A stretch of DNA of 64,000 bases from Anaerolineales bacterium. GTDB lineage: Bacteria; Chloroflexota; Anaerolineae; Anaerolineales; UBA11579. Shown here in pieces: positions 3,945 to 37,815 of the stretch (its first letter is position 1; every line of letters starts with the position of its first letter). The notes below the pieces were generated by a model, which was not told the origin of the DNA, made no database searches, and saw only the letters and a program-made list of their open reading frames with translations. The stretch lies in NCBI GenBank assembly GCA_019637755.1, contig JAHBVC010000001.1:1330480-1394479 (forward strand). Reading direction: 5' to 3'. The position numbers were made by a program, and so were the translations under genes.

Positions 3945-4736
3945 TTACTTCCATCGCGTCAAAATCGTTTCACGCTGGAACAAGCGAATAGCAAAGTACA
4001 GCAACGCGAGATCTACAAACACCAATGCGCCCGCGATGGTGAGCAGGATCGATTGATCGAGCGCTACCACGCCTACCATCTGCCCAATGAATAGGGCCGT
4101 GACCGGCAGTACCAGCAAGCCCGCCAGTTGCTCAGCGGCCCGCGGATCGTTCACGCGCGAGGAGATCATGATCGCCAGGCTCACCCCGGTGAGCGAGAGC
4201 AGCGGGCCGACGACAAAGATGCCCACCAGCCATAGCGCCGAGAGCAGGCGGCCGGCCACTGCACTGCCCGCAATGACTGAGGTGCCAATTGCGAAGATGG
4301 CAAAACTTGCCAGGCTGGCCAGCAAAGCCGGCAGCGCCGCGGCGATGGCTTTCCCGGCCAGCAGTTGCCCGGTAGTGATCGGCGTGGCGAGCAGTGGCTC
4401 GAGGGTGCGCGTAGACTTCTCGCCCACAATGCTGTACGAGGCGATCGTGATCGGAATGATGGCAGGCATCATCAGGAACAGCACCAGGAACTGTTGCAAA
4501 AGCAAAAGCTGCGTGCATTCCAGCCCTTCCAAAGGGCCACATGCGGCCTTTAGCTGGCTGATCAATGGGCCGAACTCTGACTCAATCGTGCTTACCTCTG
4601 CGCCTGAAGAGGCATACAGGAGGCCCAAAGGGATGAGTGCAAACACCAGCGGCATGAATACCACGCTAAAGATCACCAGCTTATTGCGAAAGACTTCAGC
4701 CCATTCCTTGCCAACCAGGACGGCGATCTTTTTCAT
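3945..4736 (-). CDS. ABC-2 type transporter permease (NatB-like)
   Basis: A 263-residue membrane protein with about six hydrophobic segments. The cytoplasmic motif GEKSTRTLEPLLATPI after the second segment is diagnostic of ABC-2/NatB permeases, which work as partners of a single ATPase in export or membrane-stress systems. The start codon overlaps the stop of the upstream ATPase gene (ATGA, 4733-4736), implying translational coupling. Subunit pairing with the CPBP-ABC fusion is therefore very likely. The substrate is unknown. Confidence 0.9.
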   Translation of the reverse strand: MKKIAVLVGKEWAEVFRNKLVIFSVVFMPLVFALIPLGLLYASSGAEVSTIESEFGPLISQLKAACGPLEGLECTQLLLLQQFLVLFLMMPAIIPITIASYSIVGEKSTRTLEPLLATPITTGQLLAGKAIAAALPALLASLASFAIFAIGTSVIAGSAVAGRLLSALWLVGIFVVGPLLSLTGVSLAIMISSRVNDPRAAEQLAGLLVLPVTALFIGQMVGVVALDQSILLTIAGALVFVDLALLYFAIRLFQRETILTRWK

Positions 4737-6649
4737 GCCGCCCCCTCAGGCTGAGCCTGGCCGCCCAATAACTGAAAATACACATCTTCCAGGCTCTGGC
4801 GAATTTCGCCAACGAACTGCACATCGGCGCCCAGCCCAACCAGCTCGCGCAGTAGCTCGGGGTTGTGCGCTTCGGGGTCATCTAGCTTGACCACGATCTT
4901 GTCGCCGCGCAGAGTGGCTTCATGCACATAGGTTTTCTGACGCAGCGCGCTGACGAAGGCTTCCTTTGCCGCCGCCAGATGAAAGACCACCGAGCGGCCA
5001 AATAACTTGCGGCGCAGCGCATTGGGGGTATCCACCGCCAGCAGCTTGGATTTGAAAATAGCGATGCGATCGCATAACCGGTCTGCTTCGTCAAGATTAT
5101 GTGTGGTGATGATAATGGTGCGCCCCTCGCCGCGCAGCTGCTCGACAAATTCGCGCACCGTGCGCGCCGCTTCGGGGTCGAGGCCGCTGGTGGGCTCATC
5201 CAGGAAGATCACCTTGGGCTCGTGCAGCAAGGCGCGGGCAATGGCCAACTTCTGGCGCATCCCCTTAGAGAAGCCGCCCACGGCTTCGTGGCGCCGGCCC
5301 CATAAGCCGAGCATGCGCAGATAGCGCTCCACTTGCCCGGGGATATCCTGCACCTCGTACAGCTCAGCGAAGAAGCCCAAATTGCGCTCGGCGCTGAGTT
5401 GCTCATACATGCCCGGCGTTTCCGTCAGAATGCCGATGTCCTTGCGCAGCGCGGTGTCATCTGCGCCGAGACGATGGCCGGCCACCCAAGCCTCGCCTTC
5501 ACTCGGCGCGATCAGCGCTGCCAGCATGCGGATGCTGGTGGTCTTGCCGGCGCCGTTAGGCCCGAGCAGGCCAAAGACTTCGCCTACAGGAATTTTGAGA
5601 TCGAGATGATCCACCGCGTCCAGGCTACCGAAGCGTTTGCTCAGCCCGTAGGCTACGATTGCGTCGGCATTACTCGGTGCCGGCCCCTGCGGCTGTGTTT
5701 CACGTGAAACATCTTGGGTGGCTTCAGGCATCTCAGGGCCGCCCTTCCACAATAAATACAGGGCGAATACAACACTGGGAATACCGGCGATCACTCCGGT
5801 GGGATAAGGGCCCAACAAGGAGCTCAGCCCGCTGGCCTCCGGGTTGATCATCAAGGCCCCCAAGCCAGCGATGCCATTCAAGCCGGCGTGGGCGATCACC
5901 GCCGGCCACACGCTGCCGCCGCGCAGCACCAGCCAGCCCATGATCACTGCCCACGGAATGGTGAACCACACCATTGCCAGGATCCCGGCCCACGGTGCCC
6001 CAAAGTAATCAAAGCCATAGTTGTGCCCCATGGCAATGATCGGCGCGTGCCAGAACCCCCAAATGATGCCACCCAAGACCGTGGCTTTACGGAAGCCAAG
6101 CGGCATCAGTTTTTGTTGCAGATACCCACGCCAGCCAAACTCTTCACCAAAAGTGAAGATGCTGTTGATCAGCGGGGCCAGTAAAACCCCTTGCCCCACC
6201 TGGATGAGCAGCAGCGTCCATGCATCAAAAGGCAATGCTTGCCCCGCCACTTCCGTGATGGCGTCGATCTGTTGTTGCAACACGCTCAGCGCGCTATCAA
6301 AGTGCCCCGGGAACACGCCGAAGTACACCACCAAGCCGAGAATGGTCAGCACTGTGGGCAGCAGCCAGGCCAAGGCCCAACTAAACCATGAGCGGCCTAC
6401 ATTCGGTTGCAGCCACAGATCCTTCCAGCCTTCTTTGGTGATGGCGCGGGTGAGCAGGTGGGCGATGGCGGGTGACCACATGCAGCCCAAAGCCAGCAGC
6501 ACCACGGCCAGCGTAATGCCCGTGCCGGGGAACAATTCCGGGCTGTCTACCAGCCCGCCGGTGGCGTAAATCACGGCGGCAAACGCCCAGCACAGCCCAA
6601 AGGCCAATGCCAGGAAGATCCAAATGCGTCGGGTGTCGAGTGTCTTCAT
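4733..6649 (-). CDS. Fusion of CPBP intramembrane protease and ABC transporter ATPase
   Basis: I take the ATG at 6649 (AGGAGCAGG just upstream), giving 638 residues; the longer form from 6688 would read through a parS site. Residues 1-300 are polytopic and carry all CPBP (Abi/CAAX protease-like) motifs: EEFGWR near 169, FWHAP near 199 and HAGLNG near 254. After a short linker, residues about 325-638 are an ABC ATPase: Walker A GPNGAGKTT near 363, signature FSKGMRQKLAIARAL, Walker B VIFLDEPTSGLD, and a C-terminal extension typical of NatA/CcmA-type ATPases. It is coupled to the ABC-2 permease, so the complex joins a putative membrane protease or scaffold to an exporter. CPBP and ABC domains are usually separate genes; the fusion is unusual. 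Confidence 0.9.
   Translation of the reverse strand: MKTLDTRRIWIFLALAFGLCWAFAAVIYATGGLVDSPELFPGTGITLAVVLLALGCMWSPAIAHLLTRAITKEGWKDLWLQPNVGRSWFSWALAWLLPTVLTILGLVVYFGVFPGHFDSALSVLQQQIDAITEVAGQALPFDAWTLLLIQVGQGVLLAPLINSIFTFGEEFGWRGYLQQKLMPLGFRKATVLGGIIWGFWHAPIIAMGHNYGFDYFGAPWAGILAMVWFTIPWAVIMGWLVLRGGSVWPAVIAHAGLNGIAGLGALMINPEASGLSSLLGPYPTGVIAGIPSVVFALYLLWKGGPEMPEATQDVSRETQPQGPAPSNADAIVAYGLSKRFGSLDAVDHLDLKIPVGEVFGLLGPNGAGKTTSIRMLAALIAPSEGEAWVAGHRLGADDTALRKDIGILTETPGMYEQLSAERNLGFFAELYEVQDIPGQVERYLRMLGLWGRRHEAVGGFSKGMRQKLAIARALLHEPKVIFLDEPTSGLDPEAARTVREFVEQLRGEGRTIIITTHNLDEADRLCDRIAIFKSKLLAVDTPNALRRKLFGRSVVFHLAAAKEAFVSALRQKTYVHEATLRGDKIVVKLDDPEAHNPELLRELVGLGADVQFVGEIRQSLEDVYFQLLGGQAQPEGAA
5696..5711. 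promoter_or_regulatory. parS: parS-type ParB-binding site 1 (perfect palindrome)
   Basis: TGTTTCACGTGAAACA is a perfect 16-bp palindrome matching the conserved chromosomal parS consensus TGTTNCACGTGAAACA. It lies inside the fusion gene and encodes VSRET at the CPBP-ABC linker. Confidence 0.85.
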
Positions 6650-6661
6650 CCTGCTCCTGTG

Positions 6662-6677
6662 TGTTTCACGTGAAACA
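6662..6677. promoter_or_regulatory. parS: parS-type ParB-binding site 2 (perfect palindrome)
   Basis: A second exact copy of TGTTTCACGTGAAACA, 966 bp from the first, immediately upstream of the ribosome-binding site of the CPBP-ABC gene. No parA or parB gene is present in the window. Confidence 0.85.
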
Positions 6678-6727
6678 TGCTGCATCAACTAGAAAACGAT
6701 ACTACCAATAGTTAGTGCTGCGCAGAT

Positions 6728-6766: not shown

Positions 6767-7690
6767 TTAGCTCTTGGGGGTGTTTTGCTGTGCTAGCGAG
6801 ACCATGCCGCTCATGCCACCTAAGTTCATGGTGTCCACGGCACTGCTGGGCACGATGACCATGGCGCCTTTTTCCTTGAGGCCCTCGAACAACATGTTCA
6901 TCGCCCGCAGATGCAGCGCGGTGGGATTGTCTTTGTACGCGCGCGAGGCTTCGGCGAACGAGTCGGCAATTTGCTTCTCCGATTCGCCCAGGATCACGCG
7001 GGCTTGGCGCTCACGCTCGGCCTGCGCCTGGCGCGACATGGCGTCTTCCAAATCCTGTGGGATGACCACATCGCGAATCTCCACCGATTGCACGGTGATG
7101 CCCCACGGCGTGGTGCGCTCATCGATGATCTTTTGCAGGTCGGCATCCATGCGGGCGCGGCCCACCAGGATGTCGGCCAGGTCGCTGGCGCCGATCACTT
7201 CGCGCAGCGCGGTTTGCGCTGCCCAGCTGATCGCGGCGCGATAGTCTTCCACTTCCAGGGCGGCCTTCTCGGCATCCCACACCAGCCAGAACATCACCGC
7301 GTCTACGTTGACCGGCACCGTGTCCTTGGTGAGCGTTTTCTCGGCGCTGAAGGGCGCCACGATCACACGTTGGTCGATCCACTGCGTCACCTGGTCGGCC
7401 ACCGGCACGATCCAGAACAAGCCCGGGCCGCGCTGCCCAATGAAGCGGCCGAAGCGCAAGACCACCGCCTTCTCCCATTGGTCCGCCAGCTTGAGGCCGA
7501 GCAGTACATACAGCCCGCCAATGAAGGCGAGCCCGCCGAGGATCACCGCGGCCCAGGCCGCGCCTTGCAATCCCAGCCACAAGGCCAGGCCGCCGCCGGC
7601 GAACCAAAGCACCATCATCAGCAAGGCAGCAATGCCCGGCACGTGCCCAGAGCGATTCTTGTGTGCTGTCGAAAATCCTGTAGTAAGCAT
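6767..7690 (-). CDS. Slipin: SPFH/stomatin/prohibitin-domain membrane protein
   Basis: A 307-residue protein. Two N-terminal hydrophobic helices (residues 18-45 and 46-70) are followed by the SPFH domain (EKAVVLRFGRF, GPGLFWIVPVADQV, QSVEIRDVVIPQDLEDAMSRQAQ cut short here) and a heptad-rich helix of the type that builds oligomeric rings at membranes. SPFH proteins organise membrane microdomains and modulate membrane proteases. AAAGGAGAC precedes the ATG. Its start lies 12 bases after the GntR gene, so the two form one unit. No NfeD-like partner is adjacent, which is unusual for bacterial slipins. Confidence 0.9.
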   Translation of the reverse strand: MLTTGFSTAHKNRSGHVPGIAALLMMVLWFAGGGLALWLGLQGAAWAAVILGGLAFIGGLYVLLGLKLADQWEKAVVLRFGRFIGQRGPGLFWIVPVADQVTQWIDQRVIVAPFSAEKTLTKDTVPVNVDAVMFWLVWDAEKAALEVEDYRAAISWAAQTALREVIGASDLADILVGRARMDADLQKIIDERTTPWGITVQSVEIRDVVIPQDLEDAMSRQAQAERERQARVILGESEKQIADSFAEASRAYKDNPTALHLRAMNMLFEGLKEKGAMVIVPSSAVDTMNLGGMSGMVSLAQQNTPKS

Positions 7691-7702: not shown

Positions 7703-8107
7703 TTAGTTTCTGTTCCGTTCCCACGAACGGATATGTTCTTCGATAAGGCTGCGCACTTCGTCTGGCTCAAAGCCCAACTTCTGCGCCTCTTCAACATAAT
7801 GCTCACTGAGCGAGCGTATCTGCTGTTGGCGCAGCCGCTGCAAATCACGGCCGGAGGGCGCATCGAGGATGAAGGTGCCGCGGCCGTGCTGGGTCGAGAT
7901 CACGCCTTCTTCGTCCAGCAGGCGGTAGGCGCGTGCCACCGTGTTGAAGTTGATGCGCAGGTCGGCGGCCAGTTGGCGCACGGTGGGCAGTTGATCGCCG
8001 GGCTTGAGTTCACCATTGGCGATGGCCTGCTTGATCCCGCTAATGATCTGCAGGTACGCCGGGGTGTGCACCGTCAGGTCTACGTGGAGTTTAGCTATCG
8101 GGCTCAA
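7703..8107 (-). CDS. GntR-family regulator, YtrA-like short subfamily
   Basis: This 134-residue protein has only the winged-helix DNA-binding part (residues about 10-78: PAYLQIISGIKQAIANGEL, LPTVRQLAADLRINFNTVARAYRLL, GRGTFI, each quoted in part) plus a short dimerising helix. That is the YtrA layout, without a large effector domain. The first usable start is TTG at 8107; upstream codons in frame soon meet TAA. YtrA-type regulators usually repress their own operon with adjacent membrane or ABC genes, matching the slipin next to it and perhaps the ABC operon beyond. The promoter and an unusual array of 8-bp repeats lie directly upstream. Confidence 0.88.
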   Translation of the reverse strand: MSPIAKLHVDLTVHTPAYLQIISGIKQAIANGELKPGDQLPTVRQLAADLRINFNTVARAYRLLDEEGVISTQHGRGTFILDAPSGRDLQRLRQQQIRSLSEHYVEEAQKLGFEPDEVRSLIEEHIRSWERNRN

Positions 8108-8155
8108 TGTATCACTGTACCTCTGTATGAATGTATATATGTATTATTGTACAAT
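8108..8155 (-). promoter_or_regulatory. Six phased 8-bp repeats, probable GntR operator
   Basis: Read on the plus strand, the 48 bases split exactly into TGTATCAC, TGTACCTC, TGTATGAA, TGTATATA, TGTATTAT and TGTACAAT. They cover the -10 element and the leader of the GntR gene. Confidence 0.65.
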
Positions 8156-8171
8156 TTATAGGAATTGTCAA
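8143..8171 (-). promoter_or_regulatory. Sigma-70 promoter of the GntR-slipin unit
   Basis: On the minus strand TTGACA (8171-8166), a 17-base spacer, then AATAAT (8148-8143). Both elements are close to consensus, and the -10 box sits inside the 8-bp repeat array. Confidence 0.7.
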
Positions 8172-8227: not shown

Positions 8228-8758
8228 ATGACCAAAAGTGAAGTAGCCCTAATTCGGGCAGCCCAGGCAGATCCTGCCCAATTTGAGGGCTTGTACCGTG
8301 CCTATGCCGGGCGGGTCTTCGGTTACCTCTACAGCCGCGTCGGTTCGCGTAGCGAGGCCGAAGAACTCACCGCACAAACCTTCCTGGCTGCGCTGGAACG
8401 CCTGCCCCACTACACCCACAAAGGCTACTTCGCCGCCTGGCTGTTTGCCATCGCCCGGCACAAAGCCGCCGATAACTTCCGGCGCCCGCCCGCCGAGCCC
8501 CTGCAGGCCGCCGCGCAGCTTGGCGCCGAGCAGGATGTGCTGGCCGACTTTAGCGAGCGTGAGCTGCACGCCGCCTTGCGCCAGCACATCGCTGCGCTGC
8601 CGGCGCAGCACGCCGAGCTGCTGCGTTTGCGCTATGTGGCTGGCCTGAGCTTTGCTGAGATCGGCGCGCTGTTGGGGCGCAGCGAAGGCGCCGTCAAAAA
8701 ATCAATCTACCGCTGCCTCGATCGTTTGCAGCGCCAGTTAGAGGTCGAGCATGTCTAA
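8228..8758 (+). CDS. ECF-type RNA polymerase sigma factor
   Basis: A 176-residue protein starting at the ATG after AGGAAGGGA. Region 2 (residues about 14-75: YRAYAGRVFGYLYSRVGS, EAEELTAQTFLAALE, FAAWLFAIARHKAADNFR) recognises the -10 element. Region 4 (about 118-170: LPAQHAELLRLRYVAGLS, FAEIGALLGRSEGAVKKSIYR in part) is the helix-turn-helix for the -35. The stop overlaps the next start (ATGTCTAA, 8751-8758), so it is coupled to a membrane protein that probably acts as its anti-sigma or sensor. The regulon is unknown. Confidence 0.93.
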   Translation: MTKSEVALIRAAQADPAQFEGLYRAYAGRVFGYLYSRVGSRSEAEELTAQTFLAALERLPHYTHKGYFAAWLFAIARHKAADNFRRPPAEPLQAAAQLGAEQDVLADFSERELHAALRQHIAALPAQHAELLRLRYVAGLSFAEIGALLGRSEGAVKKSIYRCLDRLQRQLEVEHV

Positions 8759-11030
8759 TCCCGCCACCCACCCTTTGGAGCCCGCACTGCGCGCGGTTTT
8801 GCAAGCCCCGCCGTTGCGGCCTGAATTTTCCGCCGCATTGAGCCAGCGTTTACAGGCCGCGGCCCATGCCCGCGCCACCCACACCACCCCGGCGCCGCGT
8901 TGGCGGCCCGGCCGCCGCCTGGCGCTGGCCGGCCTGCTGCTGGCTGCGGTTCTGGCGCTCACCTTGGCACTCGGGCCACAGCGCGTGCTTGCCCAAGTGC
9001 TGGGCTGGTTTGGCTACGTGCCGGGCACTGGCTATGTGGAAACGGAGCAAGGCTTGCGCGTGCTCGCCAACCCGCACACCTTGGAACAAGACGGCATTCG
9101 TGTTTCGACGGTCGATGGCCTGGTAGACGATCAGCAAACCGTGCTGACGATCTTGTTCGAAGGTATCCGCCAGGAGCAAAAGCCAGCTTCCGAGGATGTG
9201 CTTGGTTGCTTCAAGAACCCGAGTATCCAATTGCCCAACGGAGACATCCTCAAAGTGCTGAGTGGTAGTGGCGGCGGTGGGCACAGCTGGATGCAATTGC
9301 AACTTAGCTACCCCGCCATCTCGGCGGATGTAACTGAGGCGATGCTGCTTGTACCCTGCGTGCCCGAAGTGTTGCCCGGTTTGGGGCCGGAGAATATGAA
9401 CATGCCGCTGTTGTTCGCTCCAGCTCCCGAAGGTTTCCAAACCTTACTAGTCCAGCCGCTTGCACAGCCTACCGAAACTGCGCCCGCGCCGCACGGCTTT
9501 GCCTTGGGTGTGGAAGATTATGTTGAGCTTGAAGATGGCTATCTGATCCGCGGCCAACTCTCCTGGCAAGACAGTGAATTCACCGCACCCGAATTCTGGT
9601 CGATCGGGCTGACTCTGCTGGATGCACAGGGCAAGCTCATCCCCACAGAATTTGAAGAGTTCCCCAACCCGCCGAGTGACCCAGGCCAGCGCTTCCTTAC
9701 CTGGACGCTGCGCACGGACACGAAGCACATCAGCAGCCCGGCGCGCATCGTGCTTGAGGATCTCTCGGTGCGCATTACCCAATCCATCGATAGCGCGGCT
9801 GAGATCACCATCGATCTCGGCCCTAGCCCCAGCCACGGCCAGCAGTGGCAGGTGGGCGCGCCGTTACCTCTGGGCGCCCAGAGCATCCAGGTGGAATCCA
9901 TGCAATTCGTCGCGCGCGCCGATGGCAGCTATGCGCTGGAAACTCGTATGCACTTCGACCCGGCGGCGATCACTTACATCACCCTGCTGGATAAGGACAA
10001 CCTCAGCCAAGGGATCGGGTTGTATGGAGGCTCCGTAGAACCCGGCATCTTGGATCAGGGTCTGATCTACGACTATCTACCCACGGGTACTCATCGTTTC
10101 TGGGTGGATAACTACTTTGTTCGTATGCAAGGGCCTTGGCAGGCCGAGTTGACCCTGCCAGCGCCGCGTGCGGCGGCCACTGCGGTGCCCACCGGTGCGG
10201 TGTGCCTGCGCGCCGAGGATGAACCCACCAGCGCGCCGCTGCCGCCAGAGTTCAGCGGGCGCGTGATCGTGCAAGATTTCTCCGCCGGCGGCATGCTGCC
10301 AGGCCTGTATCTGATCTCGTTGGATGGAGCAGATCGCCAATTCATCGACATCGGGAGTTCGCCGGCGCTATCGCCAGATGGCAATCAGGTCGCCTATGCT
10401 CACGATGGGCTGCGCCTCTATGACCTGCCCAGCGGAGAAATGCGCACCCTCATCCAGGAGGATAGCGCCTACTCGATGGCCTGGTCTCCTGATGGTGCGC
10501 AACTGGCCTTTGTGCACAGTGGGCAAGGCGTATTTCGTATCGGTGCGGATGGCAGCGGCCTACAAGCCATCCCTGGCAGTAGTAGTGATATGACCGCCAT
10601 CGCCGGCTGGCTGCCGGATGGTAAGCACATCGTAGTCAGCCGCGGCGTACCTGGCGGCGCGCAGGTGCAAACGCTCAACGTAATCACGGGTGAACTGAGT
10701 GACCAGGCCGAGATCAGTAATCGCAAAGGTGGCTTTGTTACCCTTTCGCCAGATGGCCGCCAGATCACTTTTGCCCAGACGGTTTTCGGTGGCTTTCAGT
10801 ACAGCGTGTTCGCTGCGCCGTTGGATGGCAGCCAGCCGCGCCTCGTGGCTGAATCGAGCACTGAGCGCATGTATGCTGCTGGTGCCTGGCTGGGCCAAGA
10901 CTGGCTGATCGTCAATGTGTTCGATCCGAATAGTGGGTACATGCCAGCGCTGCTGCTTAATTTGGCTACCTGTGAAAGTTTTGCGCTGCCCCTGCCTGCG
11001 GTGCAGGTGATGGCGGGGCGAGCGGACTAA
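8751..11030 (+). CDS. Membrane-anchored anti-sigma-like protein with extracytoplasmic beta-propeller
   Basis: A 759-residue protein translationally coupled to the sigma factor. Residues 1-55 are cytoplasmic and helical (the likely sigma contact, though no ZAS or HXXXCXXC motif is seen). Residues 56-75 form a single membrane helix. Residues about 80-480 hold two repeated beta-rich domains resembling DUF4179-type anti-sigma ectodomains. Residues about 500-750 carry TolB/WD40-like blades (SPALSPDGNQVAYA, SMAWSPDGAQLAFV, FVTLSPDGRQITFA). The layout suggests that an outside signal sensed by the propeller controls the sigma factor. The anti-sigma role is inferred from position, not shown. Confidence 0.78.
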   Translation: MSNPATHPLEPALRAVLQAPPLRPEFSAALSQRLQAAAHARATHTTPAPRWRPGRRLALAGLLLAAVLALTLALGPQRVLAQVLGWFGYVPGTGYVETEQGLRVLANPHTLEQDGIRVSTVDGLVDDQQTVLTILFEGIRQEQKPASEDVLGCFKNPSIQLPNGDILKVLSGSGGGGHSWMQLQLSYPAISADVTEAMLLVPCVPEVLPGLGPENMNMPLLFAPAPEGFQTLLVQPLAQPTETAPAPHGFALGVEDYVELEDGYLIRGQLSWQDSEFTAPEFWSIGLTLLDAQGKLIPTEFEEFPNPPSDPGQRFLTWTLRTDTKHISSPARIVLEDLSVRITQSIDSAAEITIDLGPSPSHGQQWQVGAPLPLGAQSIQVESMQFVARADGSYALETRMHFDPAAITYITLLDKDNLSQGIGLYGGSVEPGILDQGLIYDYLPTGTHRFWVDNYFVRMQGPWQAELTLPAPRAAATAVPTGAVCLRAEDEPTSAPLPPEFSGRVIVQDFSAGGMLPGLYLISLDGADRQFIDIGSSPALSPDGNQVAYAHDGLRLYDLPSGEMRTLIQEDSAYSMAWSPDGAQLAFVHSGQGVFRIGADGSGLQAIPGSSSDMTAIAGWLPDGKHIVVSRGVPGGAQVQTLNVITGELSDQAEISNRKGGFVTLSPDGRQITFAQTVFGGFQYSVFAAPLDGSQPRLVAESSTERMYAAGAWLGQDWLIVNVFDPNSGYMPALLLNLATCESFALPLPAVQVMAGRAD

Positions 11031-13993: not shown

Positions 13994-14112
13994 AAGGCCA
14001 GTGAGTAGGAGTAGTGAGTAGTGAGTAGTGAGCGGTGATCAGGAGAAGCCCAAATCTGTCACTAATCACTAATTACTAATTACTAATTACTAATTACTAA
14101 TTACTAATTACT
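13994..14112 (+). repeat. Heptad repeat element 1 (pdxS-pdxT spacer)
   Basis: The left arm has GTGAGTA-type heptads (14001-14040). The right arm has seven heptads (ACTAATC then six ACTAATT, 14061-14109) ending three bases before the pdxT ATG. The arms are partly complementary (TAGTGA against TCACTA). Confidence 0.8.
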
Positions 14113-14694
14113 ATGCTTGTAGGCGTCCTCGCACTCCAGGGTGATTTCGCAGAACATGCCAGCATGCTGGCTCGTCTCGGCGCACAGGTGCGCGAGGTGC
14201 GCCTGCCCGCCGATCTCGACGGGCTCGATGGCTTGGTGCTGCCCGGCGGCGAATCCACCACCATCGGCAAACTGGCTACTGATTATGGCTTGATCGAGCC
14301 GCTGCGCCAATTCGGCCAGGCACATGCCATCTATGGCACTTGCGCCGGAGCGATCTTCCTTTCCAAAGATGCCGAACGCCAACAGCCCTTGCTGGGCATT
14401 ATGGATATCACCGTTGAGCGCAACGCGTATGGCCGCCAGGTCGAGAGCTTCGATGTATCTGTAGATGTGCCTGCTTTGCACGGCCTGGCCCCCGGCGATC
14501 CGCCCGTGCGTGCCGTCTTCATCCGCGCCCCGCTGATCAAATCCGTCAGCGGCGAGGCCCGGGCGCTGGCTAGCCTGCCTGATGGGCGCATCATTGCTGC
14601 CCAGCAGGGCAAGCTGCTGGCCACTGCCTTCCACCCCGAAATTTCGGGCGACGATCGCTTTCACCGCTATTTCCTGCAGCTTGCAGGAAATTAA
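14113..14694 (+). CDS. pdxT: Pyridoxal 5'-phosphate synthase glutaminase PdxT (Pdx2)
   Basis: A 193-residue class I glutamine amidotransferase that feeds ammonia to PdxS. GVLALQGDFAEH opens the protein. PGGESTTIGKL is the oxyanion/ligand loop, GTCAGAIFL holds the nucleophile cysteine, and AFHPEISGDDRFHRYF gives the catalytic His-x-Glu pair. Directly after pdxS, but the bases before the ATG are pure heptad repeat with no Shine-Dalgarno sequence, so initiation must be SD-independent or depend on a different mRNA end. Confidence 0.97.
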   Translation: MLVGVLALQGDFAEHASMLARLGAQVREVRLPADLDGLDGLVLPGGESTTIGKLATDYGLIEPLRQFGQAHAIYGTCAGAIFLSKDAERQQPLLGIMDITVERNAYGRQVESFDVSVDVPALHGLAPGDPPVRAVFIRAPLIKSVSGEARALASLPDGRIIAAQQGKLLATAFHPEISGDDRFHRYFLQLAGN

Positions 14695-24620: not shown

Positions 24621-24735
24621 GCTAGTGATGAGTGAAGGGTAATCAGTAATCGGGGCGGTGATTGCGCTAGTGTTGATTTGAATTAGCATCACTGCTCACT
24701 GCTCACTGCTCACTGCTCACTGCTCACTGCTCACC
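24621..24735 (+). repeat. Heptad repeat element 3
   Basis: Six perfect TGCTCAC heptads at 24693-24734. A facing left arm of TGATGAGTGA and AGTAATC-type units lies near 24626-24655. No gene present. Confidence 0.85.
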
Positions 24736-37262: not shown

Positions 37263-37815
37263 GCGTGTGGCGCGGGCCAGATTGAAAATTTGCGCAGCGT
37301 GGAAGATGTGGCTGCGAGGATCCTTCGCTGGTGCGGGTTCGGCGGTCGGGTGTAGGTGTATGCACCCGCTCAGGATGACACGGGTGCGTGGGCGCGGTTT
37401 GTGCGCGTGGGGTGTGGGCGCGGCGAAGATCTTGAAATTTACGCAGCATGGAAGATAGGGCTGTAAGGATCCTTCGCTGTGTGGGCTCGGCGGTCGGGTG
37501 TAGGTGTATGCACCCGCTTAGGATGACACGAGGCGCGTTGCTTGGGTTTGTGCGCGTGGATGAGCGCGGGCGAGATTGAAAATGAGCGCAGCGTGGAAGA
37601 AAGGGCTGCGATGATCCTTCGCTGGTGTGGGTTCGGCGGACAGGTGTAGGTAGATGTACCCGCTCAGGATGACACGAGGGGATGGGTTAGGCGGTTAGGT
37701 GTAAGTGGTGCCCCGCTCAGGATGACACGGGGCGCGGGCTCGGTGTTGGGTGCGGGTATATGTACCCGCTCAGGATGACACGTGAGGTGCGCGCTGTTGC
37801 TCAGGATGATACGCG
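37263..37815 (-). repeat. Tandem degenerate repeat array of the GTCATCCTGAGCG family
   Basis: Three units of about 147 bases (37263-37381 partial, 37382-37529, 37530-37677), then three shortened units to 37815. Each carries GATCCTTCGCTG followed by GGTGTAGGT and ends in CGCTCAGGATGACAC. On the minus strand this reads GTGTCATCCTGAGCG and CAGCGAAGGATC, related to the elements at 1253-1521. Decay increases towards the icd side. Confidence 0.8.

Follow-up and report, generated by a model that had tools for sequence, protein, structure and literature searches.

Six 8-bp units lying head to tail at 8108–8155 on the reverse strand of the window (the whole 64,000-nucleotide stretch of DNA from an Anaerolineae bacterium analysed here) probably form the operator of the adjacent gene, which encodes a YtrA-type GntR autorepressor. 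Judging by comparison of sequences, dimers of this regulator would bind the tandem half-sites cooperatively and block RNA polymerase, and the ancestral operator was probably a palindrome. The window array and its relatives seem to be a naturally occurring example of an operator with changed symmetry. How an operator can trade mirror symmetry for direct repeats and still have a working repressor can seldom be observed. In this case living relatives to each side of a single branch preserve the two states, sharing half-site, operon and promoter position; the branch also carries a Pro/Tyr-to-Phe substitution in the recognition helix, and the question of operator symmetry becomes approachable with small proteins and short DNA.

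The array and its promoter

In the forward letters the units at 8108–8155 read TGTATCAC TGTACCTC TGTATGAA TGTATATA TGTATTAT TGTACAAT, and in the sense of the gene GTACAATA ATACATAT ATACATTC ATACAGAG GTACAGTG ATACATTG, in a frame that begins one base 5′ of TACA. An earlier note on this DNA had described six TGTA(T/C) units separated by three quarters of a helical turn, and both points are borne out by the sequence and the phase count: TGTA occurs six times in exact 8-bp phase, and the arithmetic is correct (0.76 turn at 10.5 bp per turn). No other phased 4-mer run of period 8 in the window is as long, the next best reaching 3, and the array is the sole occurrence of the four-unit pattern in the 2.26-Mb genome, in which the reversed control pattern gave 0 matches. 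Dinucleotide shuffles of the 75-bp region produced at most 4 phased units in 5000 trials (periods 5 to 12), and base shuffles at most 4 in 100,000 at period 8; these shuffles, together with conservation in relatives, rule out a chance origin. The array is missing from the Tandem Repeats Finder list owing to variation at the remaining four positions of its units. A palindrome concealed within the array is likewise ruled out, inverse half-sites being almost absent: arrays hold 3.1–3.3 TACAA per promoter vs 0.13–0.14 of the inverse TTGTA.

The promoter search placed a −35 box TTGACA at 8166–8171, the same box found before nearly every array, and a −10 box AATAAT at 8143–8148 (both on the reverse strand), giving 11 of 12 consensus matches with a 17-bp spacer. 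The array therefore extends, as the earlier note proposed, over the −10 box and the leader, with the −10 box straddling units 1 and 2 (numbered from the −35 side) and the other units in the leader. Within the array the sequence AGAGG (8120–8124, reverse strand) is a possible ribosome-binding site, conserved in the genus, at a long spacing of 12 nt from the start codon; that codon, TTG (8107–8105), abuts the last unit, and relatives have GTG or ATG there. In 58 of the 60 array promoters outside the window's genus the −10 box is unit 1 itself and reads TACAAT, while most palindrome promoters have TATAAT. In the window's genus the array has moved 3 bp relative to the −35 box without losing its register, and the −10 box there reads AATAAT; such a shift speaks against the array being promoter sequence alone.

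The regulator and its operon

The YtrA subfamily is defined by its C-terminal domain, and a palindromic operator is typical of it while lying outside the definition. The window regulator (7703–8107, reverse strand; 134 aa) matches Pfam GntR (PF00392, E 5.7e-18), and its AlphaFold model (pLDDT 84) shows a winged HTH, starting near residue 17, and two C-terminal helices predicted at residues 87–110 and 115–133, with Sulfolobus YtrA as the best PDB fold match (6sbs, E 1.9e-8). The features of the subfamily are present, namely an N-terminal GntR winged HTH, a C-terminal domain reduced to two alpha helices (about 50 aa) and ABC transporter genes in the operon (an ABC ATPase fusion and an ABC-2 permease on the same strand); the long, usually single palindromic operator is not, this clade having a direct array.

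The presumed operon continues on the reverse strand with an SPFH/Band 7 membrane protein as second gene (6767–7690; Pfam Band_7, E 2.6e-35), followed by two genes assigned by domain search, an Rce1-like CAAX protease fused to an ABC transporter ATPase (4733–6688) and an ABC-2 type permease (3945–4736). The protease and ATPase domains of the fusion share a single 651-aa frame. On the other side of the array, a divergent pair at 8228–11030 encodes an ECF sigma factor and a protein of 759 aa that has a TolB-like propeller and may be the anti-sigma factor of the former. Other genera have a different gene in the divergent position, which ties the array to gntR and not to the sigma gene. As a guess from the SPFH, CAAX protease, SdpI and ABC neighbours, the inducing signal may be envelope stress.

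Direct arrays in nearer orthologues

Orthologue promoters came from three sources, namely the family, named genome contigs and 396 genomes of the class; this sampling is uneven and MAG-based, and some of the labels for operator type were assigned by eye. The nearer set, from class Anaerolineae (n = 66), comprises 24 rows of an 8-bp group and 42 rows of an 8/9-bp group. Head-to-tail TACA units (ATACAAtN in gene sense) lie directly behind the −35 box in all 66. The earlier note had called for a search for repeat-number variation among relatives, and such variation was found, with mostly four to six units in steps of 8 or 8/9 bp and only two recognisable units at one locus (L105). One array reads ATACAATG ATACAAAG ATACAATC ATACAAAG GCACACTC ATACAATC (L010), and that of family f2 TACAATTAT GACAATGA TACAATTAG TACAAT. 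Across 112 units from 8-bp arrays the consensus is ATACAATN, the A and C of tACa being invariant and the last base of the unit almost free.

The promoter-plus-array pattern occurs once each in 18 of 24 family genomes, always at gntR, with 0 matches to the control pattern across the same 24; a wider regulon is ruled out in the family, the pattern being found at gntR alone. In 49 of 59 array loci the gene directly after gntR is that for SPFH. Eight loci of the window's genus and family (L006–L009, L022–L025) have no SPFH right after gntR and keep the array. A scan for bare TACAN4 ×4 in 395 class genomes was rejected as evidence on distribution, as it returned mostly unrelated octamer repeats such as TACACAGG; genomes of family f2 (e.g. 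G165, G232) hold many genome-wide octamer arrays of TACACAGG/TACACACG, apparently unrelated to the operator. Among the open papers searched, none was found on such an array in Chloroflexota.

Palindromes in distant orthologues

Where nearer orthologues have the array, those of distant families have the palindrome TTGTACTAgttNNATTAGTACAA, and TATAATTGTACTAGTTNNATTAGTACAATT in these promoters is a perfect or near-perfect 23-bp inverted repeat of the array half-site TAGTACAA. Because the next gene is again SPFH (next to gntR in 14 of 17 palindrome loci tested), the palindrome regulators are orthologues and not chance paralogues, and in the one pair compared the SPFH protein beside a palindrome-type regulator is 71% identical to its array-side partner. 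An automatic rule for arrays (a minimum of 3 chained units, with up to 2 imperfect) recovered 59/66 nearer promoters vs 0/36 in the distant clade; palindrome scores of 14 or above occurred in 0/66 vs 17/36, respectively. The sequence TTAGTACAA is present in 21/42 8/9-type arrays and in 7/19 palindromes. The earlier note had set the array apart from the single palindrome usual for GntR regulators, and the distant orthologues hold just that palindrome, built from the same half-site. It had also named relatives with the same regulator and no repeats as an observation that would refute its reading; none was found inside the clade (66/66 with an array), and such relatives occur outside it only, often with the palindrome instead.

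On the regulator tree (102 sequences over 126 columns, which are few) the direct or palindrome label needs a single change, on a branch with support of 99/97, the 17 distant-clade rows with neither form clear being excluded from this count. The direction of change, from palindrome to array, is suggested by what is common among YtrA proteins, namely palindromes and NPNT motifs, and the root was placed on that basis and not by an outgroup; the promoters from outside the class (L174–L176) hold no clear array or palindrome and do not root the change. On the palindrome side, the L117 operator TTGTACTAGTTCAATTAATACAA contains a palindrome plus two direct units 9 bp apart; by an alignment made by eye, it and the L041 array TACAATTAGTTCAATTGTACAA are interconvertible by a 5-bp difference beside the −10 box. 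A takeover of the −10 hexamer as half-site is thus a plausible path from palindrome to array.

Two further arrangements were seen in individual promoters. L130, L131 and L135 have, besides the palindrome at −10, another one (AATTGTACTATTnAAATTAGTAGAAT) upstream of the −35 box, and in family f14 (L149, L150, L152, L154) the regulator leader has TTAGTTCAATG head to tail, about 16 bp apart, possibly a further operator form.

In the AlphaFold model the recognition helix comprises residues 54–66. Its first residue is Phe in 65 of the 66 array regulators and in 0 of the 36 others, which mostly have Pro or Tyr, and Arg62 is found in 65 of the 66 array regulators. On the tree the operator change coincides with that from Pro/Tyr54 to Phe; L120 has direct units with Pro54. 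As the operator switched once, Phe54 and Arg62 are inseparable from shared ancestry. Phe54 is a marker of the array clade, and we put forward as a hypothesis that it has a causal role in the switch.

Comparison with characterised GntR regulators

The closest experimentally tested precedent is E. coli NanR, a GntR regulator of the FadR subfamily, of which three dimers bind three GGTATA repeats with a Hill coefficient of about 2; at least two repeats in close succession are required, a single repeat being poorly bound and longer spacers harmful (PMC8012715). In the K-12 sequence the repeats of the nanA operator, GGTATAacaGGTATAaaGGTATA, follow one another in 9- and 8-bp steps, as in the arrays of the window's relatives. 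The window system shares with NanR the GntR winged HTH and the head-to-tail half-sites in 8–9-bp steps at the promoter, and by analogy multimeric repression would be expected for the window array too. The proteins and operators differ in other respects. NanR is a 263-aa FadR-type protein with an N-terminal extension, whereas the window protein is a 134-aa YtrA-type protein with two C-terminal helices, lacking both the FadR-type helical domain and the extension of 32 residues. In contrast to the (GGTATA)3 operator of NanR, the window clade mostly has 4–6 units of another half-site sequence, with unit 1 as the −10 box. Cooperativity in NanR depends on the 32-residue N-terminal extension (PMC8012715), which is absent here, and the contact between dimers must therefore differ. 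Rows of dimers have been described as setting NanR apart from other GntR regulators (PMC8012715), and the present array suggests that NanR-like rows arose separately in another GntR subfamily.

As in B. subtilis YtrA and the YtrA-like proteins of C. glutamicum, the window regulator is small, has two C-terminal helices and is encoded beside genes for ABC transporters and membrane proteins. According to a comparative study, the motifs of YtrA regulators are long palindromes that mostly occur singly (PMC4494728); such a long palindrome is present in the distant orthologues, and the window clade has direct arrays instead. In Sulfolobus YtrASa, the best fold match, the core palindrome is accompanied by outside direct-repeat half-sites that strengthen binding (PMC6746942). 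Its core site lies over the transcription start with these extra direct half-sites; unlike YtrASa, with its 14-bp central palindrome, the window array has no palindrome. Direct-repeat motifs are also listed for FarR (TGTATTAWTT), NagQ (TGGTATT) and NanR (PMC4494728); the HutC-subfamily proteins FarR and NagQ resemble the window regulator in being GntR proteins with direct-repeat motifs of similar sequence, a comparison made by listed motif and across subfamilies. The array therefore combines a NanR-like geometry with a YtrA protein, and an ancestral-looking palindromic state is visible in its relatives.

A putative mode of action and its alternatives

The earlier note had taken the units to be operator-like and had suggested several cooperating dimers. 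Comparison backs the former through the array in 66/66 nearer orthologues and the distant palindrome of the same half-site, and the latter through, among others, the NanR precedent with its 9/8-bp steps. Nothing in the comparison points to the DNA wrapping that the note had named as another possibility. We infer that the regulator represses its own operon, encoding the SPFH protein, the CAAX protease/ABC ATPase and the permease. Each unit, ATACAAtN in gene sense, would be one half-site, and repressor dimers would load head to tail on adjacent units, aiding each other as NanR does on GGTATA. A row of dimers over the −10 box and transcription start would shut out RNA polymerase and its release would induce the operon, with unit number and 8/9-bp spacing tuning affinity and steepness.

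The main alternative to one dimer per unit retains the array as operator and has one dimer gripping units i and i+2 (16–17 bp) with one of its DNA-binding domains turned, so that two to three dimers interleave. We consider this rather unlikely, even though the spacing lends itself to it: the TTGTA and TACAA half-sites of the palindrome start 18 bp apart, units 1/3 and 2/4 of 9-8-9 arrays start 17 bp apart, and L041/L044 keep the centre AGTTCAATT and the right half-site, the left half-site alone differing in orientation. MocR proteins, with a related domain, do bind direct repeats (PMC5320631). Such a grip is, however, not required by 4-unit 8-bp arrays or by the one-dimer-per-repeat stoichiometry of NanR, and there is no structural evidence for YtrA dimers turning one domain.

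It is considerably less probable that the units are a string of −10-like hexamers, unstructured leader RNA for another factor, or the operator of another protein. The units do look like −10 hexamers (TACAAT), and some four of the window's units fall within the transcribed leader, but the first unit alone stands at 16–18 bp from the −35 box, in orthologues this half-site is arranged as a textbook palindrome of the GntR type, and in the family the promoter-linked array is never found away from gntR. A functionless microsatellite born of replication slippage is scarcely credible, for although the array is tandem and the window has other tandem repeats (7-bp units), its units differ at half their bases yet keep TACA and register, TACA is conserved across families whose regulators are about 50% identical, and the position behind the −35 box is fixed, a conservation that refutes simple slippage.

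Returning to head-to-tail loading of dimers on adjacent units, the ancestral operator would have been an ordinary YtrA palindrome built from this half-site. The clade's ancestor would have lost the inverted left half-site, and its −10 box would have changed from TATAAT to TACAAT to become the first direct half-site, accompanied by Phe54 and Arg62 in the recognition helix. The full history may be stated as a proposition on which we are evenly divided: one orthologous regulator-SPFH operon underwent a single switch from inverted to head-to-tail arrangement of the same half-site, its −10 hexamer became unit one, the row grew to four to six, the repressor adapted via Phe54/Arg62, and a minimal YtrA protein forms a cooperative row without the extension of NanR.

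Other repeats in the window

Tandem arrays of 7-bp units lie at 14000–14113 and 24689–24734. These comprise an AGTGAGT repeat and ACTAATT ×7.6 between pdxS-like and pdxT-like genes, and TCACTGC ×6.6 in a seemingly intergenic stretch. Longer tandem repeats, of about 148 bp and 53 bp with the motif CCCGCTCAGGATGACACG, occupy 37270–37782.
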